From Clitopilus passeckerianus (taxonomy: Eukaryota > Basidiomycota > Agaricomycetes > Agaricales > Entolomataceae): a stretch of DNA of 64,000 nt. Position numbers and translations under genes: made by a program. The stretch covers positions 620,001 to 684,000 of the forward strand of contig CALYLX010000149.1 of assembly GCA_944990035.1 (NCBI GenBank). The letters run 5' to 3'. The stretch's first letter is position 1; each line of letters opens with the position of its first letter. Below, piece after piece: positions 1,000 to 59,440 of the stretch. Under the pieces are notes generated by a model that had not been told where the DNA came from, made no database searches, and saw nothing but the letters and a program-made list of their open reading frames with translations.

Positions 1000-1278
1000 T
1001 CACCGAATGTTCTTCCTCTTCTTATATGCTTCAAGGGTCTTCTTGGCGTTCTGGAGGTTTCTCACAGGTTCCCATGAGTTCTCCGATGTCGGATATCCTT
1101 TCCACTTGATCTTGTAAAGGATCTTCCCACGATGTCGTTTGTGTGCGACAATTTCTTCCACTTCCCATTCTTCTTCTTGATTGATGAGGTCAGGTGGCGG
1201 TTCTAGGAAATTGGGCCCATGTGTCTCGGTTTGTATGGTGTGAGGAGGGTGGCGTGGAACACAGGGTGAATTTTCCAT
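1000..1278 (-). pseudogene. Chromodomain at the C-terminus of Pol
   Basis: The 92-codon segment carries the chromodomain core EEEWEVEEIVAHKRHRG, then YKIKWKGYP and NSWEP with the aromatic-cage type residues, followed by a Lys-rich tail. In chromoviruses this domain is fused to integrase and directs integration to methylated-histone chromatin. Here it lies in a frame different from the integrase upstream: the integrase frame stops at 1203, and the matching sequence (TETHGPNFLEPPPD) is picked up in the chromodomain frame near 1235. One frameshift therefore separates the two parts. Confidence 0.85.
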
Positions 1279-3857: not shown

Positions 3858-4725
3858 AGACTTTCTTGAATTCGTGGTATTCGGGGGGAATGAGGTCTTC
3901 GAGTTTCTTCTTGACCTCTTCGGTTTTCTGATGTTCTAGGGTCTGGGAGATGGACGTCTTGGCGCGAATCCAGACGTTCTGGGTCGGGACGAATCGCAGT
4001 GATCCTCTATCTCGGGTGATTCGGGAGATATTTGCAGCTCGGATTCTTCTGATTTCTGGTTCTCGATGTTCATTCGTCAATGGGGAATTGGCTCGTTCGA
4101 ATATCCCCATCACTGGCTCTCCTTTCACATAGGCAATAACCAGGTCTTGTTCGGCATTGGGTTCTTCTAAGGGTGTTTCAATGGGTTCGGGTTCGTTGGG
4201 TACATTGGAAATGTCTGGGCGTGATTCCTCTGTTGCAGCTAGTCGTCTGATCTGGACTCGGGCAAGGGCCGTGCGTAGCGGGGATGTCTTGACGCGTTTG
4301 GGATTAATGAATAATGTCCCCTTTTGCCAGTTGATTTCTGGATTTGTTCGCTTCAGCCATGGGAGTCCGAGGATCAGGTGTTCATTCCCTAATCCGGTGA
4401 CCAGGCACCGTTCTGACGCTTTGTGTTTCCCTATCCCTATATCGACCCAGGTGTAATGGGTGATTTGCCCTGTTTTGTTGATAGTGCCGTCAACATTCTT
4501 GGCAGTGAGAGGTTGTCGAAGGGGATGTGTTTTGATTCGATGGCGGGCGACGAATTCTTTGTCGATGAATAGTCCTTGAGCACCTGAGTCGACTAGTGCT
4601 TTGGTTTCAACGGTTCTTTCTTCATTCGGAGCAGAGACCTTAATGGGTAGACGCATAGATTTATCAAAAGGTTCTGCATACGACATAGAAGAAATCAGTA
4701 TTGTGGCGGGTTCAGACGTTGACAC
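3652..4725 (-). pseudogene. Aspartic protease and start of RT (gypsy Pol)
   Basis: The segment contains the retroviral-type protease active site ALVDSGAQGLFID (Asp-Ser-Gly) at about residues 43-55, then a linker, then the first RT residues ([37 protein letters not shown]). It stops at 3652 because of a one-base shift relative to the rest of RT. It follows gag with an 11-base gap and lies in a different frame from gag, a layout compatible with programmed frameshifting or separate translation; that cannot be told apart from mutation here. Confidence 0.85.
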
Positions 4726-4736
4726 TGGCCGCCGTT

Positions 4737-5887
4737 CTAAAAATCCTCATCGAGCTCATTCCAGAAGCTCTCCAATTCTTCCGCTTCCAACGCTCTAATG
4801 GTTCTGACAAGATCTTTGATGTTTTTCTTGCCATAGGAGTTGGTGTTGGACTGCTTTCCTCCTCTGCGTTCGGGGCATTCTCGAGAGCGATGTCCTTTCT
4901 TGAAACAGCGGAAACATTTCCCTTCCTTCATTAACTCCTTTCTCTTTTCAAAAGATAAGGCGTCAATGTCCATGGCGTTAGGGTCTGCTGTGGCATGGGT
5001 ATTGCGGGGATTTGCATGGGAAATAGGGGGGAGTCCTCTGTTGCGGCGGATGACGTTCTGTCCTCTACGCCATTGTGCATCAAATCGGGCAGCGTGTTCG
5101 TACCATCCGTTAATGGTGACGGGAAGAATGGGGAGGTTATAGATCTTTTCGATGATCTTGGAGTTGAGTCCTTTCTGGAAGAATTCAATCTTCGCCTTTT
5201 CATCGGTGATCCCGGAGGCGGAGATAAGGACTTTGAATTGAGATATGTAATCGTCAATTGGTCCTTTCTGCGTGAGAGCGTCTAGGGATGCAAATGCCTG
5301 TCCTTCTCCGTCTACTGGGTAGAAGGCGTTGATGAATTCTTTCTCGAATTGTTTGAAATCGGGGAGGATGATGTCGTTATCTTTGTTTGTGTAGTTCTGG
5401 CAGAAAGATCGTTTCCATGCCAAAGCGGTTCCTTTCTTCAAAAGGAAAGTGCAAAAGCGATTTGCTTGTTGTTGTTGTCGTAGATGTGGTCGTTCAGGCT
5501 TAGGTACATCTTGACTTCCAACAACCAAACTTCGGCATTTCTTCGGTCACCATCATATTCAAATGGTTGTCCCATTCGGAGTTCGGCGAGTTTCTTTGGT
5601 TCAGGGTTGGTTGGAGCCATTTCTGGTGGTTCTTGTTTCGGGGTTTGTGCGGGTGTCGGAGTCTGGGTCTGTCTGGGGGGTTCTGGTTCTGTTTCCGATT
5701 CTTCTTCGGGTTCTTGCTCTGTTTCCGATTCTTCTTCGGGTTCTTGCTCTGGTTCTGATTCTGGTTCGGGGTCTGGCTGTGGTTCTGGTTCTGGGTTCTT
5801 TACTTCTTCGGTGAAGTAGGCACTGCTAGGTAGTCGCCAAATCGATATTGTCGCGGGTCTTCGTCTTTCGGTACCAAATGTCTCCAA
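4737..5887 (-). pseudogene. Gag polyprotein (two overlapping frames)
   Basis: The N-terminal frame (5887-5438) has a Pro/Glu-rich repetitive head, then an internal Met (MAPTNPEPKK) and a capsid-like segment. The C-terminal frame (5528-4737) continues the capsid region (TALAWKRSF, FEKEFINAFYP) and ends with a retroviral CCHC knuckle, CFRCFKKGHRSREC, for RNA binding. The frames overlap at about 5440-5528, so a frameshift splits capsid. The knuckle's Cys and His are all present. Intact relatives would encode this as one protein. Confidence 0.8.
5690..5800 (-). repeat. Tandem repeat encoding a Pro-Glu-Ser-rich stretch of Gag
   Basis: A unit of about 30 bp (core gattcttcttcgggttcttg) is repeated almost exactly twice, with shorter degenerate copies after it. 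It gives an alternating Glu/Pro/Ser/Thr segment at the head of Gag. Confidence 0.75.
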
Positions 5888-35051: not shown

Positions 35052-37650
35052 ATGAAGGTGACAAGGCATGAAGTATTTTCGTCACTTTCTAGGCTGCAGA
35101 AGGATATGGCCGCCAAGAAGCTTAATGAGGAGAGCCCCAACATTAGTGCCGTTGATATCTCTGCGATGAGAGCTTTCATCAACAAATTCAAGCTGAAGGA
35201 TGATGATACAGATTCAATCGCAGACGACCCCGAATACTTTGAATTACTTTCTGGTGATGAAATGTAAGTCTTCGTCTTATTTTACTGGCTATCTAGCTCT
35301 TATTCAACCCACCTTCAGTATGACTAGATGCAAAGATTTGCTTGCCGATGCGCGTTGGAGCAAGGCAGAAAAGCTGTTGTTCATGTGCCTCAAAAAGCTG
35401 CACAAGGGTCGCCAATTTCCTGCCACCGACCATCCTGGGCTCCTGTCGGAGTACTACCAGAAGATGAACCAAAAAGATGCCAATCGCTTAGCAGAATGCT
35501 TCTCTATGTTATCAGAATCGATGCACTTCCAGGAATATAATCCTGACAAGGCGATATTCTGTCTCTACTTCGGTGAATACTCATCTCATTTCTGTCTTAG
35601 GTTCTGCCATGGCTCCAGGAATTTGACGTCCTTATCAAAAACCAGTGGTATGCTCAACCGTTGTCTCTAGAACACAGTGCGCTCTTCAACCTTCTAAGCT
35701 TCACCACTGCCCTTACACCCTTTCATAGAATGGGCACATTCCGAATGGGTCTTTCGAGAACACGGAGAGGACCCGGCTAGACGATTTTTCCAGCTATTTT
35801 TCACCGCTCAAGCCTTCAAAGAACTGCATAACACAGCAGCATATTCACATCACACGTTTCTTGCACTGTGTTCCTTGGCGGCATTACCACCAAACATGGT
35901 GCCCAACCTGTTTGGTCTGATCGGCGACGATTTCTCCTCTCAAGCGCCTTCGACACCCAGATCCTACATTCAATCCCAAGTTCCGACTTGACTACCCCAC
36001 ACTGCAGGTTCAAGGCTCCTGGAAGCGGCTCGCCGCTGCAGCGAACGATACTCTGGGCTCCCGACACACTGGATCCAGCTTCATATGGAAAGGTGTGATA
36101 TCCGTTGATCGATAAACGTCGGCACTGACCAAAACTAGGCTATTTCTACATCATTGGGGGCATTAAAACTACAACTCTAGAAATTTCAGAAGAAGGTCCA
36201 GACACCGATGTCTGGCGCCTCAATCTTTCAAAACTCAAAGAGTGGGAATTTGTCTGTCAGTGTCCCAAAACTCTCAAGGGGGGCATCCGCATCGGCGCGA
36301 ACCGAAGCATGCGAGTCTACAAGGGCAAGGTGTACCTCTTCAGCGGACACCCTCGACTCCTCTGCTTTGATCTGAAAACCAATAAATGGAGCGCACTGGA
36401 GACTAGTTATCGACCAACTGCCGCCGACCGAGCAGTAGGTCTTATTGACTGGCCCTGGGTTAAGATCGGATGCAACGGCTTTTCGCTAGAAATCATCCGG
36501 GACCGGCTGCTTGTATTCGGTGGGCTCAGTTTCTGGAGCATAGGTGGCAGTAATCTGTTTATGGAACTCAGCTTGAAGACACTCCTGTGGAGGAGAATAA
36601 GCGGCCACCCCGCTATCCAGCAACACAACGATCCGCATCTCCCCGGGCCACGCCACTCCGCAGCATCGTGGGCAGGCAAGGACGGAAGATTGTTGGAAGC
36701 TCATTTGAAAAGCTCTGGCCCTATCATCCCCCAGAGCCGTGGGACTACGATGATTTGTGGAGCTTTGATGTCGAGACGGGAAGATGGCGCCGGGAAAGGC
36801 TCAACGGGAATCCACCCTCTCCAAGGTCACAAATGTCCTGTGACTATGTACGTATTGCGGATATTTAATTCTCTCACTACTAATGGGAAATGCTTGGTTT
36901 CACAGAACGCGAAACTTGACGCAGTCGTTATCTTTGCAGGGCTCAACCAGATGTGCCAATCTCAGATAGATGATACCAGTTACCTGATCAATGGATCATG
37001 CTATGCAGATACCTTCATTTATACTCCTCAAAGAAGGACCACAGCTTCAGCGGTCGAGGGTAACACGACAGCCCAATGCGAGGAGATATATCAGTGGAAG
37101 CAAGTCATGACACGCGGATTCCCACCATATCGCGTTTCTGCTCAACTTGCATGCGATCCCGAAACGGGCAAAACTTACATGTATGGAGGAGAAGTGCGGG
37201 GCGAATTCTCGCCCAGTAAGACTCGCACGGCCGAGCAAGCTGTGAAGCGTGCGGAGCCGCCAACGGCCCTCATGAAGCTAGCAGTCAGACAGGGTTATTC
37301 CGTTGAGACGCTTGGGGAAGTGACCCGAGCTTCGTTCAGTCGGCTCTTTGGAGACGTGTGGCAGCTTGATATTGACATTCCGGGAGGATATTTTGGCGAA
37401 ATCGACCTAGAAGACGAAGCACGCACGGCCACCGTGGGTCCATGGCAACGATGCTTTAGTTGCAAAGACTTCGGCTTCTTCAAGAAGTGTGGTGGCAAGT
37501 TCTTTATTTCCTATTATCGCCTCACTCCTTTCGTTTCTCATGCAATGCCTTCTAGGTATATGTGGTGGGCGGCCATTCTTTTGTTCGACCTCATGTCAGA
37601 AGGGCGGGTGGGGGGAGCACAAGCGTATGCGTTCGTGTAGGAAAGCGTAA
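35052..37650 (+). pseudogene. Kelch-repeat plus MYND-finger protein, copy D (one frameshift)
   Basis: Close relative of copy A with the same exon plan: AMRAFINKFKLKDDDTDSI, then RWSKAEKLLFMCLKKLHKG, WAHSEWVF, kelch segments (YFYIIGGIK, LLVFGGLSFWSIGGSNLFMEL, VVIFAGLNQMC, MYGGEV) and a MYND finger (CFSCKDFGFFKKCGG, CGGRPFFCSTSCQKGGW, EHKRMRSC). One extra base (or two missing) at about 35932-35940 shifts the frame between IGDDF and the conserved RLRHPDP block. In the finger's last motif, copy A's RLHSC reads RMRSC. Two introns use GC-AG borders. Start may be 35052 or the Met at 35106. Everything else is open, so the shift is recent or an assembly error. Confidence 0.7.
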
Positions 37651-38020
37651 ATATAATGTATGCCTAGTTACTAGCCTACAAAGATGAAACCCAGGAAGAG
37701 CCAACGAGTACACACTGTTCTCCTTCGAGATATCAATCCATTGTGCCATTTCTGTTGAACCCGATGGACAGTAAATTTCAGTTAGAATCTAACTCCTCAA
37801 CGCGGACCATTTTGGTAGTGGCCAGAGGCATGCAGTTGGCCATTGTCAACGAAATATAATTGGAACAAGGAGTCGCTCGCTTTGTTTTAGGATTCTTATA
37901 CTGGATGGGCGCATAGATCCTCCAGTTTATCTGCATTGAGGCTTCAAATAAAAAACTTATGACGCGAACTCTTTTATTCTGACGGCACGCCCAATACGTC
38001 TTAGAATGATTTCACCATTT
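37651..38020. other. Intergenic, convergent 3' ends
   Basis: 3' flanks of copy D and of the GMC-like gene. Nothing else seen. Confidence 0.5.
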
Positions 38021-40938
38021 CTACTCCACTATACAAGGCGTTTCATACCCAGGAGTAGTCACATATGCCACAGGTCTCATCCCAAACTTCTTTTCCTCGG
38101 GTGTCCTTCCATCCTCAAGTCTATACACCAACACAACCTCGTCAACACCCTTCTTCCTCAACCTCACAACCCTCTCTCCAGGCCCTAAAACCCTCTCTCC
38201 CTTATCCTGCATTTCATCCTCCCCAACCCTAACCCCCGCTACATTCGACACCCGGATTTTGATCCTCTCCCCGGTATGGTTTACAACAACCACAGACCTC
38301 TTCGAATCAAGCTGATCCTGGTATGATAGCGTTGAACGATCGACCTCTGGTTCTCGTGGGTGGATGGTCCGGGAGAGGCGGAGTGCAAAAGCAACGAGTG
38401 TCAAGGATGGATCGACACCCGGAGAGAATGGGAATAGGGAGAGGTCGCATACAAAGATGTTAGAGTGCCCACGGAGTTGGAGGTTCTGCTCAAGGCAGTA
38501 GGCTTGGAGTGAAGAGGTACGTCCGGCACTGGTGGATTTGAGTGGGATCGTTCCGACCCCGTGCCCCGGCTCAGGGCTTCCAAGGTCGAGGGGTGTGAAG
38601 TAGTCCTCGTCGTCATTGTCATCCGCATCTACATCGCCGTGTATGTGGATACGTAACATCTCCTTCAGGACCTTTCGTGCTACTTGGTCAAAATCACGAA
38701 GTTCTGCAAGGTCGCGGTCGCGGTCGGCACGGCTATAGGGCGATTCACTCCCTGCTTCCGCCTCGACGACAGGTTCGTCCTTGAAGTTGAGTCTGATGGT
38801 GTTATTCCTATTCAGCGAGTCTGGTAGGGTAAACGTGCTAGTCAACCTGCCACTAGAGGCCCGGGAGCTACCAGAGGGATCAACCTCAATGGATATGATC
38901 GCCAGCGCGACTTGACCAGACCTGAGACGAACATAACTCTGCAACTTCATCGACCCCGCTTTCTCCCGAGCGCTCTCATCCAGGAAATGGATCCTTGTAC
39001 TCCTGACACGAATATCCGGGGAGGTGAGGTGTAACCCTCCGTTATCCTCCAAGAATCCATCAAGGCCACTACGCATGAGGATGGCCGGACACTCTAGGCT
39101 ACCGGCGCCGAGGACGAGGAGGCCGGTGGGGGAAAGGCGGATGGTGGCCGCCCTGCCTTTGCGGTCCCGAATGAGGACACCAGTAGCCTTAGCCTTCCCA
39201 GTCTGCCCGTCTCCCCATTCGATAGAGCGAACCTCAGTGTTGGCGAGGGTTTTGAAGTTCGAGTGTTCAATCAGTTTGAGAGTGGTAGAATCTCGTTGTT
39301 TGCTTGTTGCGATTTCTGGAAGTCGGTCGATGGGGTTACTTGAGGCTAACCGTGCCCATCCCCACAGGCATCCCCGTTCACCGTCCCGCCCACCACACTC
39401 CATATCGAGCCTCTCGATGATTCCTAGCTGTAGAGCATTCGTTGGGGGTAGGGAAACATCCATGAGCTGTTCGGCTTCGGTGTACCACTTTCTCGAGAGC
39501 TCGGTGTAGAGAGCTGACCCAAGTTGGGTTTGGAGGGTAGAGGGTTCGATGCGTGTGGCAGAATGGTGGACTTGGGGAGAGATGTTGAGGCGGTGGGAAT
39601 GGGTCGACGCCTTGCCTGGGACTGGGCAATTTTCAATGACGAGAACGTTCTTGGATCCTCCGGGCCCTAGCTTAGTGTTCGTAGAGAAGAGGTCGGTAGC
39701 AAGGACGCTGGCGCCTAAGGTGCTTCCGATTATGATGATGTCGTAAGTTTCCTTGGCTGCTGCCTCTAGTGTGAATAAGGAAAGGCCGGATTGGAAGGAA
39801 GGCCGTTCAGAACGGCGAGTCGTACTGCTGGTGGTGTTTTCGGTATCGCTTGCATCCCACCGTGAAGTCAAGGAGAGAGTACTGGTAGAGGCTGAGGCTG
39901 AAGTGCGCTGGCGTGATGAGTAGTCAGCGAGGCTGGTATTGTTGGAGCTCAAGCTGGTTCTTCTGCTTCTCCCAGTATATGAAACGGAGGATACTGCCTC
40001 GTCGCCATCAAGGCCGATCCCACCGCCTGTGCCAGTGGGGCTGGTGATTCCCCAGTCTGACGAGGTGTCGCTGGGGCTGCTTAAGCTTGAACTCAAGCTG
40101 GTTCCTCTGCTGCTGTTGAAATCGGATATGGTTCCTTGATCATCCCTGTCGTAAACCTCTGCAGCAACGCCGGCGGTGGTATTACTGCTAGTGTCGATGC
40201 CAACCACATCGTCCAAGGACTCGAAAACATATCGTTGGTTTGGTGCGTCCTTGATACGAGGGTTCAATCTTCGGGTGTTCTGATCAAGAGTAAAACCTTT
40301 GGCTCACGTCTTGGACAGCCCAGAGGTGGAGGCGGCGATCCTACGGAGTCATTGGATTAGAGCTGAATATGTAGGTCAGGGCGGGAGAAAATCCTTACCT
40401 CAGTCTCATCACGGCAGTCGACTGTAAGGATGGCAGACTCATTCATAATTCTAGTAGCACAATCAGAATTTTATGAACACCGGTGAAAGGTATAGACTTA
40501 CCTGGAGTATAGCCCATCTTGACTCTTTTGTATTCGCCAGTTGGCGGCGCTAGCCCATCGTCCCTCGATGGTTCCGTACGATTTGTCGCTACCAGCCTGG
40601 CCTGAGGTTGGGACCATACCGATCCACAGATCAGACGAGGGCCGGATAGTATACACGTCCGTCGTGCCAGACACGCGGTCCAATCTCCACTAAGGAGAAG
40701 AAAGGAACCATCAAGAGTAAGTATTGAGTAAAGCACAGGAAGGAAAAGAATGGAATACCTTGAACTTCGCGTCCGAGGCCGAGTCTGTTAAGGGCGAGAG
40801 TTGGATCCAATGGACGTTCCCGGTGTGGACATGTTTCAAATAAGCAGAGGAAGAGATTTGGGAGCCTGGGGAGCGATAGACCTCGATTCGGTAGGTCCCA
40901 CTCGCCGTGGGATGGGGCTGGCGTGGCAAGGATGGCAT
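38021..40938 (-). CDS. Beta-trefoil-like domain fused to a GMC-type flavoprotein
   Basis: Exons 1-4 (ATG 40938, MPSLPRQPHPTASGTYRIEV) encode about 150 residues with repeated patterns (GTYRIEVYR, WRLDRVSG, NWRIQKSQDG, LHLWAVQD, PNQRYVFE) that resemble a ricin-B/beta-trefoil fold. A long Ser/Thr-rich linker follows. The large exon then has a Rossmann start YDIIIIGSTLGASVLATDL and a C-terminal block (GTIPLKSTSAGRTS, LQLRGHSNIFVCDLSLFPFSPGVDPSLTLVAFALRLSR) resembling glucose-methanol-choline oxidoreductases. The dinucleotide motif is degenerate (GSTLGA rather than GxGxxG), so activity is uncertain. A further C-terminal domain (SNVAGVRVGEDE...) is duplicated in the relic at 31720-32211. Confidence 0.75.
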
Positions 40939-41749
40939 GGATGTTGGTGAAAAGATTACTCTGAGTCCACGTCCTCGTCACTGAGCATGCAAACACTGAG
41001 CACGGCCAAGAGATGTGTCGAAACGAAACGTCGAGTGATGATCATGAGATTGTGATAGTGTGAAGTACCAGCATAGGCGTCGGGAATTGATTGCTTCGAT
41101 GTTTGTGGGAGTACATGAGCTATACACCAATTCCAGATCCTGCAAAATGGACGATGGAACAGGTGGCAGAAATGATCTGTGTTAATGAGCTTGACCGTCT
41201 GGAGAACGAACAGTAAACGCACGATTTCAGGTTAAATTGGATTTGCGACGGCGTCAAGCATTCAATATGGCCTCGAATAGTAATACTTGTGCCAGGACTT
41301 TGGAAACCATGTAACAAAGCAATTCATACGCCTGTGATGACCCAAGGTTTCAAGTTGCTCGACTTCAATTCACCACTGGTTTTGAAGAAACCAACGTCCT
41401 ATCGAGTTCTTCCTCAGAGCCTGTCATAGCAAGTGGATTTCAGCAGGTCGTTGAGCCCAGGCCGTTAGGCAGAAGAAGTTCGCTGTTATTCTCACGCCTC
41501 GGCAAGTTCGATGGCTGAGTCAGCAGTCATTGTTAACCTCATTTATGTAACTTTTAAGTCTTCCAATCACATTCAAACTGCTCGTGTACCATGGCATTAT
41601 ACCTGTTTTTCGAGCTGATATTGGCCCACATCCATTCATCGCCCCTGGGAGACAATGCCAAATGAAACTCGATTCCGAGATCACCGATTGTTAATCCCAG
41701 TCCGTGTCCACTTCCCGAACTGAATGAAGTGTAATCTGCTAGTGTGTCA
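40939..41749. other. Intergenic, no supported gene
   Basis: Upstream side of the trefoil-GMC gene. A 74-codon minus-strand frame (41554-41778) has no recognised motif and overlaps a family relic, so it is not called. Confidence 0.45.
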
Positions 41750-48677: not shown

Positions 48678-49627
48678 CTACTGCCCGCTCTTCTTCGTGG
48701 CCTCGTCTTTGCAAGTTCGGCTGCAGAAGTAGTCTTTATCGCTCTGAGGGAACTTTCGGCACATGATGCAAGCCTCAGCCAACCCAGAAGTAACGGCCTC
48801 TCTAAAGATAGATTATCTGTTCATTGGCGTACTCGACAATAGGAGGTAAAGAACTCACTCTCTGTGCCTCTTGGAGCAGTAATCGCTTGTCTTCGCTCCT
48901 TTCGCATCAACGTGAGCGGGTTTCCCGCAGCCAGGGATGAGGCAGGTAGTGTTAACGGCGGGGGCAGCAGCTTGACCAGAGGCAGTAGCCGGTTGGAGGT
49001 TCGATGCAGCAGGTGTCGCGGTTGTGGAAGTAGAGGCGGCACCAGGTGCTGGCGGGACGATCTGGCCTGTCTGGGGATTGACAGTGGCGAAATATGCTTT
49101 CATCTGCGGAAATTGTGAAGCGAGGGTCTCTGGGCACAATTATTTGTTAATGCTCGAGTGGTCTCATGGATGGTTATGTGATGCGGACGTACGAGCCATC
49201 TGTGCGGGATTGAACCCTGACGAGGCTGGTGCAGGCTGCTGAGCCGGTTGAACGCCTACATTCGCGGGGCTAGCAGCTGCCTGTGCGGCACAATATTTCC
49301 CGCAATAGTCGAAGTTGGTAAACTTCGGCTTGCTTTGGCAGTACTAGTGCACAGCGTAAAGTCAGACTACGAATCGGTTCTACAACAGTTGGCACTGACA
49401 TTGCAGAGGGTACTTGCGTTGCTTGTTGGCGCAGCAGCAGCAAGGGCAGCGGGTATGGATGTGCCAGCACTAGCAGCACATGTCTTGGAGCAATACTTAT
49501 GACCCGAGTGTCGCGGCTTTAGGTGACAGAACTGGCGAACATTTGTGAGCTTCATTCAAGATATGCTTTTGGAGGCTATCCGGCCTACCTCACAGAGCTG
49601 CGTAGTTGATGCCTGAGTACTGAACAT
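48678..49627 (-). CDS. Free-standing Cys-rich module protein, kin to the PARP N-termini
   Basis: Five exons from ATG 49627 (MFSTQASTTQLCE) to a stop at 48678. It has four Cys-rich units of the form C-x2-C...YC-x3-C: a split CEFCHLKPRHSGHKYCSKTC, then CNYCQSKPKFTNFDYCGKYC, then CLIPGCGKPA...SDYCSKRH, and last CIMCRKFPQSDKDYFCSRTC. They are joined by Ala/Pro/Thr-rich linkers. The same unit occurs N-terminal to the PARP-like domains at 56305-57839 and, in variant form, at 53706 and 58251. No catalytic domain is attached. A zinc-binding adaptor or target-recognition role is inferred. It lies about 270 bases downstream of NADAR on the same strand. Confidence 0.7.
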
Positions 49628-49896
49628 CTTCTGGGATTTATTTAAAATGGGGAAGAATGTGAGGGCTCAAGATCGTCGAATATGTCCTTTATATCTGAGA
49701 GACGCCTGATCGCGATACACGAGGCAACGTTCATGCAACCTAAAATTCCGTTTCAAAAAATGAGATGCTGTCTTATCTGGTGATCGCAATAGCCAGGCGG
49801 ATTGGGCCTGTAGTGACAGTCTGGTCATGGCAGACACGGATGAAACGTGTTGGATTGTGACGATAAATATTGTAAGTCGAATCACATAAACATGCA

Positions 49897-51007
49897 TCAA
49901 AGGCGTGCTTTAAGCATGTCTCGAAGCCTCTCTAGTGCCTTTCCGAGCTCGTTACGGCCTTTCCCATCGGCACCGACTCCCCAGAAGGCATCTTTGTCGG
50001 AGTCCTGTCAGGATGTCAGATCAAAGGGAGAAAGCAAGAAGGATTGGTTCCATACCTCAACAAGTTCAGCGTCACCTGTAGAAAGAAGTTCTTGCTTCAA
50101 ATCTTGGTGCTGGGTGAATTTGTGCTCTAGTGTGATGTCCATCTGATTTACAAGAGACTATGAGACCAGTAAATATCGCATAATCAGAATTGCTCACCAT
50201 CGCAACGTTCACATGCTTCCAGTCCGGTCGAACTTCAGGCTGAAATCTTCGAGCCTCAGAGAACGCAACACTTGGTCTTTCTGAGCACGTCCGGATATGT
50301 TCAGCTAAGCCGGGCCGGTGGCCATGGAACTGAATAGAAGACGATGATAAGTAACTGGGTGTTTTCTAGAAGGATCTTCGGATACAAACTTTAAAGGACT
50401 GGAAAAGATGTTCGCTGGTCGGGTATCGTTTACCCTGGTAAATGACAGGGTGACTTGAAAAATTAGTGAATCCATAGTGTTCATCTTGTTTATGGTAAAA
50501 GAGGATTTTCGCCCGAGGACGTGGAATGAACGTCGAATATCGTGGGGGCTCCTGAATGATCGGAGACCTTGGAGACGGATTGAAGTTGGATAGTCGTCGC
50601 GATTTACGGGACTCTGCCTTACTGATTTCTGGCGGGGGCATCTCGTATGCGGGGTATTCTTCAGGCGTATGAATTTCCGGGATCTTCTCCAATGGCGGCA
50701 TGGCTCTTGTTGGAGACGGATAATCAGGTTGACCACTGCTCGGTGCTTTCGGGGGAGACAGGCGCGACTCTGAAGGCTGCCTAGGGCGAGATCCGGGGCT
50801 TACTCTGGAGATTTCGGCAGATCTCACTACAGAGTGAGCTGAGCCATAATAAGATGGCTCAGCAGGTGTCACTGGAGCGCTTATGGGCGTGTAGAATGCG
50901 GCATCATCAGGGGTGGGGAGACCACTCGAAGAGGTACTTCGCCAATAGTTGGTATCCAAAGCGCTGAGACGTTTCCTATCCTGATGAATATCCGAGTATG
51001 TAGACAT
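49897..51007 (-). CDS. NADAR-domain (YbiA/DUF1768) protein with disordered N-terminus
   Basis: NADAR domains act on ADP-ribose and related N-glycosidic compounds; in bacterial DarT1-NADAR pairs they reverse ADP-ribosylation of guanine. About 165 disordered Ser/Pro-rich residues (ATG 51007, MSTYSDIHQDRKRL) precede the domain: ILFYHKQDEHYGFTNFSSHP, IYQGKRYPTSEHLFQSFKF, then RTCSERPSVAFSEARRF, MMDITLEHKFTQHQDLKQEL and DAFWGVGADGKGRNELGKAL. The conserved Glu of SEH, the FxxF/N entry motif and the FWG segment are all present, so it looks active. Four exons, about 310 residues. It is divergent from the first PARP-like gene, which suggests shared control. Confidence 0.85.
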
Positions 51008-51838
51008 ATCGTGGGGTATGAGCGAGAGGGCCGCAATAGAGATAACTGGTGTTGGGAGGTAAAATAGGGTCGAGCCAAGATCGTGGATATCGTTTAAATG
51101 ACAACTCTGATCAATGCCTAATGAACCGCATGTTCTACGCTTAGACAAGCAACTATAGCCCAAGTAGGTCTAACGACGAGTTGATTATCGGAAAACAAGC
51201 ATTGTGTTACCCAAACGCGTTGTGGTTTAAGCATGGAGGCCACGAGTAGCTCTGACGTTACTGACACTGCCTACGGCGTGACAGCCCCTGGCGTGATGCC
51301 GAGGTCATTGTCGACAGTCACACACGATCTCCTACGGTCTCTCCATGATCATCACCTTTCGACTCGTGGTCGACGTCAAGAATAGTCAGGCGGTTGCAAT
51401 GCTCAGGCAACACGATACAAGGGTCCTTAGATATTCGATTTGGAGGCTGGACTTGCTCTAGATACTTGGCTTGAGTCATAGAAACTTGGGACTTAAGAAA
51501 GCTGTCCCGGTTTCGGATGTTTGTGCTTGTTCAATCAGCAAGAGGCCACGTTTTTTCGCCGGACAGGTACCTCGAACGCTGTCCGTTCATCTGGAGGAAA
51601 TGAGGGGATTGATGCGATTCGCTATATTCAGCAATGAATGATAGCTTCGCACCAGCAATAATCTCGGTCTCTCACACACTGAGCCCTGAACGGTTTCATA
51701 TCAGCGCACCCATGCCGCGTTTTGACGTTTTACTTGACCACCCTGTTCCCGAGCCAGATTGGGATATTACAATTGTGGAAAACATTTATATTGCTAGGCT
51801 TTCGACAAGGGTTGACTGTGATACTTCATAACTTCATA
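51008..51838. other. Divergent spacer between NADAR and the first PARP-like gene
   Basis: Should hold both promoters. Plus-strand frames at 51634-51831 and the upstream extension of the PARP frame lack a convincing start, so I keep the PARP start at 51839. Confidence 0.45.
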
Positions 51839-52872
51839 ATGCTGGCCGACGACTACTTCACAATTGGTGGCTCAAACCCACATGCTGAAAAGGGCAGCCG
51901 AGTCTCCCTACTGCCACGTTCAGTGAACTATCACTCGATTGGTAAACCCCTTCATCCTTGGGCAACATCCAGTGGCTGACGTCTCTACTCCACAGTCGAG
52001 GAAAAGTTCAAGCAGGGTTGGAAGCACCCTGATAAACCTGTACCTCCCATCCATGGGATCTTCACAGTTCAGTCCAGTCCAGATATGATGAGCAGCTACA
52101 AACGCTACAGGTCAGTCGTCTCTGTTAGCCATCTCGACTTTGATGCTGAGAATCAGCCAGAACCAAGGTTGGTGCCACGATGGTTCACAAAAAGACCGAC
52201 TTTTTCGCGAACGAACAACTATTATTCCATGGAACCAACCGATGCTGTCTTCTCGGCGAAGACACAAGAAGTAATCGTCCTTGCGAACTCCCTGAGTGCA
52301 ATCTATGTCGCATAATAAAGGGGTCCTTCGATGTCGGAAAGTGTGGTAAGCATGCTGAGCTCATTACTTTGGCCCCCATTCTGACTGTTAATAGGTACGA
52401 AGAACAAATTTCGAAGATTTGGGACGGGGATCTATACTACAACTTGTTCATCGAGTGAGTGCAAGCGCCAACCTCCGAACGTATGAGTTCTGACAAATTT
52501 TACAGAGGCTGACGACTATGTTCTCAATCGAACAAAATCGTCACACCTAAGAGTCATGCTGGTCAGCCGGGTGGTAGTCGGCAAGCCTCTTGAGCTACGG
52601 CTGAACAACACAGAGTTATTGGAACCCCCATCGGGTTACCACTCCGTACGTCATCTCCTTTCCGTCAATGATCACGATTCTGACTTGATGGGTTACTGCA
52701 GGTAATAGGCAAGCCTGGCCCTCAATTAAACTACCCAGAAACAGTCGTATACGACAATGATGCAGTACGACCTGTATTTCTGGTGGTATACGGTTTTCCA
52801 CCAGAAGACGAGTCACCATCTGGGGTAAAATCAGCGATTGCTAAGTTATTCAAGACACCACTAGTATCGTAG
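51839..52872 (+). CDS. PARP-like ADP-ribosyltransferase 1 (H-Y-E triad kept)
   Basis: PARP-fold enzymes transfer ADP-ribose from NAD+ to targets. Spliced exons give the head MLADDYFTIGGSNPHAEKGS, then VEEKFKQGWKHPDKPVPPIHGIF and the catalytic domain. His is in QLLFHGTNRCC; a family Cys pair in CELPECNLCRII; Tyr in RRFGTGIYTTTCSSS and DDYVLNR; then SRVVVGKPLEL and GYHSVIGKPG; Glu in LNYPETVVYDNDAVRPVFLVVY. All three catalytic positions are kept. Exons 51839-51941, 51996-52110 and from 52161 join in frame. Unlike its neighbours it has no Cys module at the N-terminus. Start could lie further upstream. Confidence 0.8.
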
Positions 52873-53705
52873 AGTATTTGGATTTAATGGAATAAACATA
52901 TACCACGGACCTGGACATGCCTACTAGGCTTTTAACGTTTGGATTGATGTGCACTCAGTTCCACCTTACTTCTTTTATGACATTCGGGGTTCCGTTTATC
53001 TTAAGACCGTTATGAGGACATCTGATCCCATCCCATCCATGAAATTGCGGAGTGGCGGGTTTGCGTACCCATCGGGTTAACCGAGTTAACTGCCGCCCAG
53101 TCTTGTCTGAGATCAAGAGAGATGAGTACCCGTTCCAACGGCAGAGGAAACAACCGCCGGCCAGGCTGATTCTGGTTCAAGATGTACCGACAACCTCAGG
53201 TAAGGTAGTTTTTTCGGACGGTTGCACTCCATGTGCCTTGATGACGATCCTTGAAACTGTGAATCCTTAACTCCAGTGGTCGATTTAGGTACTTTTCTGA
53301 CTTTTAGAACAGCGACTTGAGGATGGGTTGAGAGGGACGACCTTCTCATCATGATCATCTGCCACGGCCCTTTTACCAAGGCACACACAAGCACGTCATT
53401 CCAGACTTGCAGGACATCAATACTCCCGAGCAGTGGTGATTTAGGGGGGCATATGGGGGAAACAGTGTCAGTAGCTATTCGAATGTGCCGCAGGTTCTCA
53501 GGTTTCCGACTCTCGCGCTGTAAATGAAACCTGCTAGTGTCATCAACGTGGCTGGTCTTCACGTCGAAAGTGACAGTGAAGCAGGGTTGAATCCACGTGA
53601 AGACAATCCAACGCACGGAACACGTTCAAGCCGCGTCGAGGGAACTAAAAGCATGGCTGAAGGCATATGAATTGTCGATAGAACCCGCACTGTTGAGCTA
53701 CTGCT
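52873..53705. other. Intergenic between PARP-like genes 1 and 2
   Basis: A 167-codon minus-strand frame (53113-53616) is open, but it lacks a recognised motif and sits in a spacer of a plus-strand array. I do not call it as a gene. Confidence 0.4.
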
Positions 53706-54978
53706 ATGAGACGCTACACAATCTTTCCCTTAAGCTGGTTTGGGGGCAATACTAGTAATATAGCACTGGGAGCTGCTTTATGCGAGGAAAGTGTTTCTCT
53801 GTGACTATTCCGGCGTTCTGTTGACAGAATGGGCTCATCAGGTTTGTGGGATCAAACCGAAGTTCGTCGAAAACGGCTTCAAGCATCCTTACTGTAGCAG
53901 GACATGTGCGCGCAACATAACAGGGCATAATCCGCAACCTTGTCAGACGAGGTCTTGCCAAGCGACGGGCAAATCAAGTCACGGCGGATACTGCAGCCCA
54001 CAACACGCGAGGTACCGTCGGCATGTCAGTCTCTAACCGTGACAAAAGTCTAAGCGGCACGGTATCCAGAGAAGCCGCAAGAATGAGCAGAGTTCTGCAA
54101 ACATGCCAATTGTGTGGATCGCAAATCAGGTCTGGGGGAAACTTATGCCCCTCCTGCTCACGGAAATCAGTCATGCCCCCTTTGAATGACACCGACGTCG
54201 GATTACGAGAGGTTGCTCCACATTTGAGGGTTTTTGGCGAATGTATGTGAACACCATCCTAGCTATGGCGTGCGGCTGACGCGCAACTTCAGATAGAGAT
54301 CGATTCTTGAAGCAGTGGTCCTCGGCTGAGCGGCTTGTACCGACGGTCGAGAGGATATTCGAGGTCCAGGTACCCTGGACCAGCCAAGTAACACATGAAG
54401 ATTATCGGTACGCGGGCGTAATACCACATCCGCGAATGGACATTACGAGAGTACTGATTTCCCATATTTAGCAAACGTCTACCGGGGTCGACGACTATAC
54501 GGACATACCATAGCTCACAATGCATCTGTGACTTCGGGACGAAAGCTACTACCGAACTATGCGGATTTCGCTCCTGCGGTATCTGCATGGCCGTCAAGTC
54601 AGCCTTCCGCTCATTCGCATTCAAAGAGCTATATAATGTTGGGAGGTACGGTTCACTCACCAAGTAGAAGCGCCGCATACTGATCGCTTGACGGAGAAAG
54701 GTTCGGCCAAGGGGTATATTCATACTATAACTCGGCGCTGGCAGACCGATTCGCGACGTCGTGCACTACTTCTCCCTATAGAGTCTCGGTCGAATGCTCC
54801 ACAATAGTGCGACCCGGCTCATGTGGCACTACGCAGGTAAATATATCTTCCTGTCATTGTTGAAAAGCTGCCATGTTAATCTTAAGCATCCGGTTAGGCG
54901 ACTAGTGGGGAATCTGTTTTTGTCGAGACAGCTGATGCGATTGTTCCCGTTTGCATCGTACTGTATCGAAAAGTGTGA
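53706..54978 (+). CDS. PARP-like protein 2, Cys modules, catalytic Glu lost
   Basis: Exon 1 (ATG 53706, MRRYTIFPLSWFGG...ALCE) should join a Cys module CGIKPKFVENGFKHPYCSRTC, then CQTRSCQATG...GGYCSPQHA, and a second unit CQLCGSQIRSGGNLCPSCSRKS. The PARP-like part follows: DRFLKQWSSAERLVPTVERIF, then TYHSSQCICDFGTKA (His kept), CGFRSCGICMAV, RFGQGVYSYYNSALADRFA (Tyr kept), SPYRVSVECS and finally GESVFVETADAIVPVCIVLYR. The position of the catalytic Glu in active copies holds Ser here. The donor after exon 1 reads GAGgaaagt instead of GAGgtaagt, which may impair splicing. Otherwise open. Confidence 0.65.
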
Positions 54979-56304
54979 GAGGAAATTTAGTGGAGGGTAT
55001 GCTCGGAAGAACAGCTCACCGTAGCCAGTCGCTGGTGCGGTTGACCGCGTAACATTATCTCAATACATAGAGGCTTCGTGACCATTCGCCTGAATCGCGT
55101 TCCTGACGAGATATGAGTGCCTTGACGCAATGAGGTGCCTCCAATACCCTCACAACACATATTCGATATGAGCTATAGCTCGATTGAACATTGGGAGGTT
55201 CCGGTGATCTGGAATGAACCTTAAGGATTCTGCGAGGATTTTGAGGTCTGTTTTCACCTCTCCGATGAGATGAGGATGCAATGTGTAGAACACGTAACGA
55301 TAGACGTAAGTGACATCCAGCGTATGCTTTCACGTCACTTCTAGACCCTGAACGCTACACTGTAAGGTCCCAGACGTCAGAAGACTCAGACGCTTGCTGA
55401 ACGATCAGCTGCAAGAATCCTGCCCCGATAGGTGGACACTAGAGACAGGTGCGTATACCGGTGCTCTGAGGCAAGTCATGAATTATCCGATGATACAACG
55501 AAGAAGTGGCAACCACGACGCAGATCAACCTGAGACCATGGCCTGCCTGAGAGTCCTAAGAAAATAACGTGTCACAGGCAGTCTAAGCCAGGTTAATTCC
55601 TACTTAAGGCGGCAGTGTGAACACCCTAGGACAGCAGGTGTGGACTTCACGATTGGAAGTGTGAATGTGACCTGGCATACGGTCGAGCTTGCTCTGTGCA
55701 CATGCCTGTACTTCAATGCTCCGTGAGGCCGTCATTTAATGACAGAATCAGTTGCCGAGATAGAGTCAGAGAATGGCGTGCCCGGTGGTGAATTTAGAAG
55801 CTGGGAAGCCTGAGTGAATGTCATTGAAAGCAGGCAACGTTTAGGTTGGCGTGTATTCGACCACGCCAAAGCCGTACAGAAGGCAATCGACCACGTCTTT
55901 CACAGGAAAGGACCAGGTTTTTTGCTACCTTTCGCGGCCCCGTTAGGGTCCACCGGTCCCGACTCAGAATGAGGTCCTATTCTCTGGACGAAGAGAAGAC
56001 CAAAAAAAAGGAGGGCTTGCAATTCAGACAAGCAAGTGCAAACAAACACCTTCAAACCGGCAGTCCGGAACGTGCCCTTCCCATCACGCAGTGGCGTTTC
56101 TGCAACGACTTCATTCTTCACCGCGACAGCAGAACATGTGTTTACGAAGCAGGTGCATGGCCGTGTACCCCAGATCGTTTCGAGTGCCAGATATCGTGTC
56201 CATTTATGACACGGGGATCACACTTAATAATATGGCTCGCTGAAAACCCTACATATCGACCTTGTCAAATCAATCTATAAACCTCGTCTTTGTGACTAAC
56301 TTCT
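54979..56304. other. Longer spacer between PARP-like genes 2 and 3
   Basis: A plus-strand frame of 144 codons (55846-56280) has no recognised motif. I looked for a decayed PARP copy here and could not find one. Confidence 0.4.
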
Positions 56305-57839
56305 ATGTCGTCCACTCTCTGCGAGGTGAGTACATTGACAGGATATCTTACCGGATAGCTTGCTTAGATGTGAGGATAGAGCTGTCATCTTCGTCCTAAG
56401 TACTCCGACGGTACCATCACACACTCCTACTGCAGCAAGACTTGTGCAACGAATAAGCAGAACATCGCACCAGCAATGCCTCCGGTCACGACAACCTCAT
56501 CACCCACATGCGAGGTGAATATATAGTTCTTGCTCTCCGAGATTGTCCTAACAACTTAACTCAGGTGTGCAAGACGAGGCCAAGGTATCAGGATACGTCT
56601 GGAAAGACGCATCCATTTTGTAGCAAAGGATGTGCAGCCTCTGCCGCCGCCGCCGCCAGTACCTCGTCGTCGTCGACATCATCGCCGAAGAAACCCAAAG
56701 GTATTGTCCTGTCTCCATTGTGTCTGAATCATTCTGACAAGAGTATCTCAAGGTACCTGCAAGGCACCGAACTGCACCAAGCAGGCGTTCGCCAGCGCAG
56801 ATGGTAGCCTGGCAGATTTCTGCAGCTTCTCTCATAAGAAGTAGGTTTATTCTTCTTTCCCCGAAGAGATCAGTGGCTTATGGCTCTTCAGACTCGGGGA
56901 AACGCTTTGCTTGATGTGCCGAAAGGCGGCAAGAATGCAGAAGAGCCACTTCTGCGGACAGGCCTGTGAGGCTTTGGCGGAACAGAAGGGGCCAGTGATC
57001 CTCGAGGTCCCAAGGAACCATGTCACCTTCCGTAGCGGTTCGTATTACTACCTCCTCTCTTCGATCTCCTGCTCATGTCCTTTTGCAGTCGAAGAGCAAT
57101 TTACCGCGTCTTGGAGACACTCAGGCAAACATTGCCCTGGCGTTCGCCGTGTCTACAAGATTGTCTCGTCTCGACAAGCTTTAGATGATTACAACGCGTA
57201 TCGGTAAGGTCCTCGGCTGTTGCTTGATCGAACCCAACTGACGCCCTGACAGGGCAGACGTTGAATCTCGAGGCCACTTCGAGGCGACAGGTCGCTCAGC
57301 AGGAAACGAGAATCGCAGATGGCACGGGACACGCCGCGAATGCAGCGTGGGTGACAAGGGCCAGACATCACTATGCTCGTCCTCGAAATGTTCCCTGTGC
57401 TCCATCATCAGAAACTCGTACGATTTGAACCTATGGGGAACTAACACGAAGTGGGGGAGATTTGGGAAGGGTATCTATACCTCAGCCACTGCGTCGAAGT
57501 AAGCCCAAAACCTTGGTTCCTTTGAAGAATCAGCACGCTAATTACACAACAGGTCGAACGATTATTCCTGGAATGGAACGCCGTCGAAGCTGAAGGCGAT
57601 TTTGCTGAACAAGGTCGTCGTTGGCAAGGGCTATAAGATGTACAACGACGATACTACTCGAACTGCACCACCCACAGGATATGACTCGGTAAGCAAGCTT
57701 CTCGGTTGTCTCGATTATTTACTCATCCTTTCCTCAGGTATTGGCCGAAGTTGGTGGGAGCTTGAACTACGACGAGTTGGTAGTTTATACCAACAACGCT
57801 ATTCGACCCTCTTTCCTTGTTATGTATGACGATTTGTAG
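56305..57839 (+). CDS. PARP-like ADP-ribosyltransferase 3, Cys modules and intact triad
   Basis: The N-terminal half has several Cys units: a short MSSTLCE exon, a piece with YSDGTITHSYCSKTC, CKTRPRYQDTSGKTHPFCSKGC, an Ala/Ser-rich linker, CKAPNCTKQAFASADGSLADFCS, and CLMCRKAARMQKSHFCGQAC. Then VEEQFTASWRHSGKHCPGVRRV leads to the PARP domain: His in RRWHGTRRECSVG, Cys pair CSSSKCSLCSII, Tyr in RFGKGIYTSATASKSNDYSW, VVVGKGYKMYNDDT, GYDSVLAEVGG and Glu in LNYDELVVYTNNAIRPSFLVMY. This is the most canonical copy. The first intron's acceptor is uncertain because the module after it lacks its first Cys pair as I spliced it. Confidence 0.82.
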
Positions 57840-58250
57840 CTATAGAGACTGTATCTATTATGAATGAAACTGGATTTCTTCGCTTGGAATCATACCACTT
57901 GAATAACGAACGAAGCGAAAGTGTCGGATTGGGCACTGCCCGACCCACCTCGTGGACAAGTCATTTCTCGGCTGGGTGCCGACTTTAAACGCCCATCCGA
58001 ACGTATACATGCACGCATGCCATCAGGGTGAAAGGCGTTCAGTGGCTGGGTAGCGGACACTCAGGCTAGTAACTTTGTGATTGATGTAGAATTACAACAT
58101 AGTTGATGTCAAACTTGCCCTGAACGCCAAACCAACGAGGCAGCCACGCTCCCTGCAAACGCCGATGCGAAACAATAATCCAAGATACAAAGGCGTCAGA
58201 CGAAATGCAACTCTGCCCAGTTTCACCCTTTCATTACCTCGTAGTCCTCG
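57840..58250. other. Intergenic between PARP-like genes 3 and 4
   Basis: No ORF of note. Confidence 0.5.
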
Positions 58251-59440
58251 ATGCCGCAAGTCGCCATGATCCTGCTCTACGACACAGACAAGAATGATTT
58301 ATGCAAGGTAGCGCGAATTTAGAACTCACGATCCTGTTTACCATTCTAACAGCCAGAACCAACTCTAGGTTTGTGGGGTCAAACCCAAATATGTAGAGAA
58401 TGGTGTCCAGCACTCGTACTGCGGTAGAACATGCGCACGTAGCGTGTCCAAACCTTCCAAGTGCGTTGTTCTTGGACTTTGTATGGCTTCTGGGCGCTTA
58501 ATAAGCCGTGAAGGATCTCCTCAAGGAGTCCAAGTGAACAAGGCAAAGCATGCCAACTATGCGGTTCCCTCACAAGATCGACAGGTGGCCTCTGCTCCCC
58601 CTGCGTGCGCAAATCGCGTGTGAGCCTATTTGTCCAACCTACGATGGATGCTACCATTCGAGAGGTGCGATTAGAAGGAGGGAATTTCAAGAAGCGTGAG
58701 TACGATCCGCCTACGCGATAATCTTGGATTTACGGGGCTGATGTCTACGTATCTCAGATCGAGAAAGGTTCCTAAAGAATTGGAAAAGCTCTTCGGACAA
58801 CCTTCCTCAGGTCGAAAAGATTTACCAAGTTGAGGTGCCCCGCAACTTCCGCGATAGCTACGAGGCACGTAGGTAAGTATCGGCTGAGAAATTAGGGACG
58901 GGCTTTCACTCATGCCTCCCCTCCTTCTCTCCAGTGCATGCCTTCCAAACGCTACGGAAGTGCGAACCTACTATAGTTTCCAATGCATATGTAACTTGGG
59001 GACGACCAATGCTGAGCTTTGCGCTTTTCCGTCATGCGGAATCTGCATGGCTGTCAAGTCGTTATTCCATACTTTAGCTTTCAAAGAGCAGTTCCATACA
59101 GGAAGGTCAGTACAGGTTGATTGGCTACTATCGGATTATCATTCTAACGTTGCTATTGTTTCTTTCACTAGATTTGGCCGAGGGATATACTCCTACCGGA
59201 ATTCATATTTGGCGGACAAGTATGCAACTTCATGCATTACCTCCCCTTACAGGGTATCAGTCGAATGCTCTGTCGCTGTTTCCCAAGGAACGGATGGTAC
59301 TACCCTGGTAAGTTCGTCCCAATTCAACCGTAACATATTTCTGACGCCAATTTCCGCAGGAGACAAGTCAGAATTCTGTCTTCGTTGACGTAGCAGAGGC
59401 AATTCTACCAGTCTGCATCGTAATTTACAGAACAACTTAG
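58251..59440 (+). CDS. PARP-like protein 4, likely pseudoenzyme
   Basis: ATG 58251 (MPQVAMILLYDTDKNDLCK) joins CGVKPKYVENGVQHSYCGRTC, then CQLCGSLTRSTGGLCSPCVRKS and RERFLKNWKSSSDNLPQVEKIY. The PARP-like domain follows: VRTYYSFQCICNLG (Tyr where the catalytic His should be), CAFPSCGICMAV, RFGRGIYSYRNSYLADKYA (Tyr kept), SPYRVSVECSVAV and NSVFVDVAEAILPVCIVIYR (Ser at the Glu position). Six introns with normal borders keep the frame open to the stop at 59440, so the gene looks expressed though probably without transferase activity. It is closest to copy 2. Confidence 0.75.

Follow-up and report, generated by a model that had tools for sequence, protein, structure and literature searches.

A cluster of cysteine-module PARP-like genes around an embedded NADAR gene in Clitopilus passeckerianus: a candidate ADP-ribose writer/eraser locus

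Introduction

The bacterial DarT1-NADAR system (DarTG1), in which a gene with an ARTD fold stands beside a NADAR gene, is one of the closest described counterparts of the locus reported here. A eukaryotic NADAR, that of P. nicotianae, hydrolyses ADP-ribose linked to guanine, and YbiA of Escherichia coli is an N-glycosidase acting on riboflavin intermediates (PMC11543638). According to the same article (Schuller et al. 2023), NADARs that are not linked to DarT1 may have physiological targets other than ADP-ribosylated guanine, and YbiA-like NADARs are positioned close to those that serve flavin biosynthesis in plants and fungi. As for the transferases, Citarelli et al. (2010) listed only PARPs of Clades 1 and 6 for fungi and confined the tankyrases to animals. 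We analyzed a stretch of 64,000 nucleotides from the basidiomycete Clitopilus passeckerianus (GCA_944990035.1, contig CALYLX010000149.1, positions 620,001 to 684,000; hereafter the window, on contig C146), in which a NADAR gene lies beside a tandem array of PARP-like genes.

An earlier note on this DNA had proposed that the cluster may combine several ADP-ribose writers plus two altered ones with a Cys-module protein and an eraser, the NADAR. All of these components proved real, intact and constrained. The cluster can tentatively be read, at slightly less than even confidence, as a group of Cys-module ADP-ribosyltransferases (ARTs) with an embedded NADAR N-glycosidase, which would write and erase ADP-ribose. 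In contrast to DarTG1, the system is eukaryotic, several spliced ART genes are present, and these resemble PARPs and tankyrases rather than DarT. We are not aware of any other pair of writer and eraser, apart from those of bacteria, that would have a targeting domain in common like this.

Results

Splice models were built by hand from the DNA alone, using anchor peptides and GT/AG scoring, and they yielded six spliced genes where the earlier note had placed them. The Cys-module gene CYS (48678..49627, minus strand) is intact and encodes 238 aa with four Cys modules and without a recognised catalytic domain, in five exons (49589-49627, 49400-49531, 49193-49343, 48859-49129, 48678-48801). Beside it, NADAR (49897..51007, minus strand) encodes 314 aa in four exons (50390-51007, 50198-50329, 50056-50142, 49897-50004); its NADAR domain spans aa 170-311 and scores 126.2 bits against PF08719 (cut-off 35.1), and the N-terminal part has no Pfam match. 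A divergent intergenic region (51008..51838), a candidate shared regulatory region with low haplotype divergence, separates NADAR from the four PARP-like genes, ART1 to ART4, all on the plus strand. ART1 (51839-52872; exons 51839-51941, 51996-52110, 52161-52345, 52395-52454, 52506-52645, 52702-52872) encodes 257 aa, a PARP-type ART domain without Cys modules, with the triad H96-Y148-E214. ART2 (53706-54978; exons 53706-53792, 53842-54011, 54070-54242, 54293-54407, 54472-54645, 54701-54836, 54898-54978) encodes 311 aa, Cys modules and an altered ART domain with H195-Y246-S291 and HSS replacing HGT; its N-terminal exon is uncertain. ART3 (56305-57839; exons 56305-56325, 56380-56514, 56565-56700, 56753-56840, 56892-57037, 57089-57203, 57253-57498, 57553-57688, 57738-57839) encodes 374 aa, four Cys modules and a PARP-type ART domain with the triad H238-Y289-E354. 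ART4 (58251-59440; exons 58251-58307, 58369-58480, 58543-58695, 58758-58872, 58935-59105, 59172-59307, 59360-59440) encodes 274 aa, Cys modules and an altered ART domain with Y159-Y209-S254. A fifth member, ART5, lies beyond the window end, about 15 kb past ART4 (C146:694474-696140); it is an open gene of 388 aa with the triad H252-Y303-E368. The cluster proposed earlier thus held within the window and reaches past it, to about 27 kb with ART5 included.

The assembly searched comprises 64.8 Mb in 160 contigs. Positions 42125-64000 of the window align with C152:211539-233418 at 94.3% identity over 22 kb, and from this match and the paired NADAR loci described below, we infer that the assembly holds two haplotypes. 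The ART5 allele lies at C152:199.3-201.0 kb, with one intron left in frame in its model.

The earlier note had assigned PARP-type folds to all four plus-strand genes, starting at 51839, 53706, 56305 and 58251. The starts agree, and PF00644 (cut-off 26.7 bits) is present in ART1 (52.1 bits) and ART3 (52.3 bits) as well as in ART5, that is, in three of five ARTs, whereas in the Pfam search ART2 and ART4 gave neither PF00644 at E ≤ 1 nor any other family over its cut-off. These two can be aligned with ART3 and ART5 over the length of the protein (blastp E values reach 2.6e-18, for ART2 against ART5; hhalign probability 99.7) and are 49% identical to each other (E 2.6e-87); ART5 and ART3 are 68% identical. 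Given this homology, ART2 and ART4 are, by descent, PARP-fold genes whose sites are altered. The H-Y-E triad is present in ART1, ART3 and ART5, replaced by H-Y-S in ART2 and Y-Y-S in ART4, and the triad motifs of ART1 to ART4 are identical across both haplotypes. MAFFT places a gap at the Glu strand of ART2 and ART4; the segment was also read ungapped from the conserved last intron, a phase-0 intron that they have in common with ART3 and ART5. The catalytic Glu is missing by either reading, with Glu changed to Ser in the ungapped one.

Tankyrase-type chains were the best solved relatives of a profile of ART1, ART3 and ART5 (best E 5e-10; 61 sequences under 0.01), and for ART3 the family profile gave E 6e-10 against tankyrase. 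Searched singly, ART1 matched tankyrase-1 (E 3.1e-8) and ART3 human PARP4 (E 8.8e-7). The three H-Y-E proteins align with these ARTD enzymes across the His of HG[ST], the Tyr of GIY and the Glu strand; in the three tankyrase alignments shown, the Tyr-Glu segment is significant, with about 33 bits, while the His segment (NE..xHG[ST]) is a separate piece of about 8 bits that is weak alone but keeps the register. By contrast, a profile of ART2 and ART4 found no relative in the PDB apart from one metallothionein at chance level. Pfam recognises none of the ankyrin, SAM, BRCT or vault parts of tankyrase and PARP4 in the fungal proteins, which instead carry N-terminal Cys modules (none in ART1) and also a Cys cluster between His and Tyr (C-x10-C-x4-C-x2-C in ART3), most of which each of the four window ARTs retains. 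The absence of ankyrin and SAM families from the Pfam matches of every ART protein sets them apart from the tankyrases of Clade 4. Judged by architecture, the family looks like neither of the two fungal clades as described by Citarelli et al. (2010). Animal PARP12 and PARP13 (ZAP) likewise have several zinc fingers before the ART domain (Suskiewicz et al. 2023), and Val replaces the catalytic Glu in PARP13 (Citarelli et al. 2010), much as the site is altered in ART2 and ART4. Both likenesses are analogies of design: the animal proteins have CCCH and WWE domains and the fungal ones FCS-like modules, and sequence relation to ZAP was seen in the ART domain only (4x52, E 1.3e-4, ART3 search).

A genome search with ART3 returned 27 exon matches, 26 on C146 and C152 (including ART5) and one weak match on C110. 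The latter (C110:1115.3-1116.3 kb) encodes a divergent member of the family, which has a single Cys module and a Glu strand shortened in the alignment, so that confinement of the family to the cluster was rejected. It has FRSE at the HGT position, with Arg where His is expected, and is possibly another altered transferase. A separate gene on C111 has a much higher PF00644 score (102.9 bits).

All six window genes are intact and under purifying selection. The reading frame is kept in the second haplotype in six of six, and codon-by-codon comparison of the two haplotypes by the Nei-Gojobori method gave ratios of non-synonymous to synonymous divergence (omega, dN/dS) of 0.06-0.18, with non-synonymous differences depleted by Fisher's test: NADAR, dS 0.123, dN 0.011, omega 0.09, p 1.2e-10; CYS, 0.138, 0.017, 0.12, p 3.8e-8; ART1, 0.094, 0.009, 0.09, p 3.2e-7; ART2, 0.077, 0.009, 0.11, p 1.1e-6; ART3, 0.155, 0.010, 0.06, p 1.3e-16; and ART4, 0.104, 0.018, 0.18, p 1.1e-5. 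Three departures were seen in the second haplotype: the modelled first intron of ART2 is missing its GT donor, one NADAR intron begins with GC, and balancing indels inside an Ala/Ser linker of ART3 leave its frame intact. Since ART2 and ART4 are intact with omega of 0.11 and 0.18, these altered transferases are kept as proteins, and the view that they are pseudogenes or decaying copies was rejected.

The evidence that links transferases and NADARs most directly lies elsewhere in the genome. A fusion gene on the minus strand of C82 (C82:857131-858765; allele at C142:1006.6-1007.9 kb) is the nearest paralogue of the window NADAR, with 63.8% identity across 149 aa and the same three phase-0 domain introns. 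Its eight exons encode 376 aa, three N-terminal Cys modules followed by a NADAR domain that scores 132.2 bits against PF08719. The fusion is open in both haplotypes, its exons align without gaps from one haplotype to the other (dS 0.23, dN 0.012), and residues 60-169, 330 nt that cover nearly all of the modules, hold 17 synonymous and 0 non-synonymous differences; a Met/Leu difference between the alleles lies just ahead of them.

Cys modules are N-terminal in four ARTs (ART2 to ART5), make up the whole of CYS and are absent from ART1, which is an ART domain only. CYS matches the N-terminal half of ART5 at E 3.8e-15, and against Pfam it gave no family over cut-off and nothing better than E 0.46. 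Likeness to zinc fingers is weak, with PF19114 in ART5 (E 0.0023) below its cut-off and zf-FCS PF06467 in the fusion at 15.4 bits (cut-off 22.4, E 0.017), a resemblance of pattern only. A hidden Markov model built from the modules of ART2 to ART5 and CYS only was searched against 11,149 overlapping open reading frame pieces from the window and the loci retrieved. It found the first module of the fusion at E 4e-6 and 8e-6 in the two haplotypes, the next unrelated match being at E 0.83, and its best score on five shuffled sets was 11.9 bits against 25 for the fusion. Pairwise blastp of the fusion, without composition correction, gave ART4 at E 1.2e-6, CYS at 2.6e-6 and ART5 at 1.1e-5. The ART genes were unlisted at E 0.1 in a whole-genome search with the fusion, so the module can be picked up only by profile or pairwise comparison, and other module genes may exist.

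Gene structure points the same way. In ART3, ART5, CYS and the fusion, a phase-0 intron falls between the inner CxxC residues of both the first and the second module; ART4 has it in its first module, and ART2 as modelled differs. We take the modules of the fusion and of the ART and CYS proteins to share descent, and this sharing of module and intron is the strongest evidence here that the NADARs and ARTs of this fungus may share one functional context. Viral contigs scanned with ART3 and with the fusion, bacterial and archaeal genomes scanned with the ART profile, and phages and plasmids scanned with ART5 gave no confirmed relative. The viral-contig and bacterial/archaeal scans use short peptide patterns, which reach close relatives best, and their nulls do no more than fail to suggest a prokaryotic or viral source.

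Among solved structures, the window NADAR is nearest to YbiA (2b3w, E 3.1e-26), followed by 8bau (E 7.8e-7), which we take to be the P. nicotianae NADAR since the residues named for that protein fit the chain with an offset of 2. The window protein retains E199, K206, R233, W243, E279, D284 and W287, corresponding to seven (E43, K50, R79, W89, E125, D130 and W133) of the 11 residues named as surrounding ADP-ribose in the P. nicotianae enzyme (PMC11543638). At the E125 position, its Glu (E279) is that of the YbiA subfamily as defined in that article, whereas the DarT1-linked NADARs (BC4488 subfamily) have Asp, and a DarT1-type antitoxin was rejected on this ground. A genome search with PF08719 recovered 15 stretches on 9 contigs, grouped into five loci (C14/C115, C35/C34, C82/C142, C146/C152 and C127), of which C146/C152 and C82/C142 were confirmed as haplotype pairs by alignment. 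The NADARs on C14 and C35 are closer to 8bau (E 6.2e-16 and 2e-13) than to YbiA (E 0.0087 and 3.3e-4). The NADAR-like gene on C127 has a proline-rich N-terminus and, by eye, has lost both active-site Glu residues (SALH for TSEH, LVY for LVE), which makes it a candidate pseudo-NADAR.

Between NADAR and ART1, the 831-bp spacer differs between haplotypes at 18 of 831 sites (2.2%), against 262 of 3934 in six other spacers and flanks (Fisher p 2.4e-8). It is less diverged than each of the six, although against the ART3-ART4 spacer p is 0.056 only. Synonymous divergence is not low in the flanking genes NADAR (0.123) and ART1 (0.094), and the introns of the six genes differ at 3.6-9.3%. This pattern fits a constrained bidirectional promoter, and a local coalescence effect is also possible. 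Taking five NADAR loci and about 32.4 Mb, which is half of the assembly, the chance, calculated a posteriori, that one falls in the 11-kb window cluster is 0.17%, rising to 0.42% for 27.5 kb and 0.8% for 51 kb.

Discussion

With Cys modules fused to a NADAR domain, the writer/eraser reading can draw on domains held in common and not on proximity alone. Under this reading, the modules would act as an address label, as zinc fingers for nucleic acid or protein, that brings the transferases, as well as the hydrolase of the fusion, to one target. There the H-Y-E enzymes would attach ADP-ribose from NAD+, and the NADAR enzymes would cleave an N-glycosidic bond, most likely the one that joins ADP-ribose to guanine or a related base. 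For ART2, ART4 and CYS, binding is conceivable and transfer improbable, and they could compete for the target or scaffold it; the label "reader-like" given earlier to CYS is a guess. The divergent promoter between NADAR and ART1 would put both genes under common regulation. The intact genes, the H-Y-E triads, the fusion, the conserved spacer, the seven NADAR residues and the low chance, calculated a posteriori at about 0.2-0.4%, of finding one of five NADAR loci within the cluster count in favor of this scheme.

Several observations weigh on the other side. The nearest solved relative of the window NADAR is an N-glycosidase of the riboflavin pathway; the seven retained residues are also kept by YbiA in the same alignment and so do not decide the substrate; and K75, Y84, D86 and R93, four of the 11 residues named in PMC11543638, are not conserved. 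Cys modules are lacking in the embedded NADAR itself, and no linkage joins the fusion gene to the ARTs. ART3-type writers might act on protein, while the NADAR activities described in PMC11543638 concern guanine-linked ADP-ribose and riboflavin intermediates. The earlier note would have discounted the linkage if NADAR genes were equally common far from PARPs, and four of the five loci do lie away from the cluster, on contigs without an ART-family match; nevertheless, the nearest paralogue among them carries the Cys modules of the ART family. Linkage of NADAR and ART genes is known here from one genome in two haplotypes. The writer/eraser idea has gained the module fusion and the conserved divergent spacer; the pair is plausible and testable, and unproven. 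Its more specific form, a eukaryotic system of reversible guanine (nucleic-acid) ADP-ribosylation in which Cys-module PARPs write, NADARs that carry or borrow modules erase, and the altered PARPs and the module-only protein compete or read, strikes us as unlikely.

The same NADAR sequence is compatible with a RibX/YbiA-type N-glycosidase of riboflavin intermediates. A damage-control enzyme of this kind, in the form of a fusion-type copy that landed by chance in an unrelated ART tandem family and stayed there, is a serious if rather unlikely alternative. It would account for the far closer match to YbiA than to 8bau, the reverse of what two other NADARs of the genome show; it accords with the position of YbiA-like NADARs near flavin-biosynthetic ones as given by Schuller et al.; and unlinked loci outnumber the linked one 4 to 1. 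However, this NADAR differs from YbiA in lying within an ART cluster and in having a paralogue fused to Cys modules. The modules of the ART family on the sister gene serve no obvious purpose in riboflavin metabolism, the spacer between NADAR and ART1 is conserved to an unusual degree, and a landing in the cluster has a chance, calculated a posteriori, of less than 0.5%.

Two further explanations do without a reversible mark on a macromolecule or give it a different purpose. It is improbable, in our view, that the pair handles small molecules or by-products of NAD+, with the ARTs consuming NAD+ and NADAR recovering side products of an ADP-ribosyl or nicotinamide-riboside-like kind. According to PMC11543638, NADARs have the flexibility to accept nucleoside derivatives, yet multi-module arms common to the writers and a NADAR suggest a macromolecular target, and none of the 20 open reading frames scanned, out of 53 of at least 140 aa, was named as an NAD+-pathway gene; nothing seen points to the control of NAD+ that the earlier note had raised. 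We consider it very improbable that the ARTs poison the cell or an invader while NADAR protects, the role in which DarT1-NADAR serves as a bacterial ART/NADAR pair (PMC11543638). Here the ARTs are PARP/tankyrase-like, five of them face one NADAR, the diverged paralogues are under purifying selection on both haplotypes, and at least one housekeeping gene, for ribosomal protein L4 (61471-62073), lies within the extended cluster. A defence or self/non-self role, also suggested earlier, is not supported here; the two alleles are under purifying selection and show no sign of diversification.

Outside the cluster, window positions 35957-41447, with Kelch-repeat and GMC-oxidoreductase open reading frames, match the other haplotype at 71-89% in partly changed order, compared with 94% at 42-64 kb. 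Ty3-type retrotransposon open reading frames (reverse transcriptase, RNase H, integrase, gag and protease) occupy 1206-5546 on the minus strand.

ART5, the Cys-module-NADAR fusion and the NADAR/ART1 region as the least diverged spacer are new in this analysis. They point to a family of Cys-module PARPs in a fungus, where the 2010 survey of Citarelli et al. listed two PARP clades. The two pseudo-transferases under selection, ART2 and ART4, provide material for studying the use of inactive PARPs. The question of what writes the mark that eukaryotic NADARs remove is narrowed to a short list of enzymes that can be assayed, as candidate partners for NADAR are indicated twice over, by its position among PARP-like genes and by shared Cys modules.

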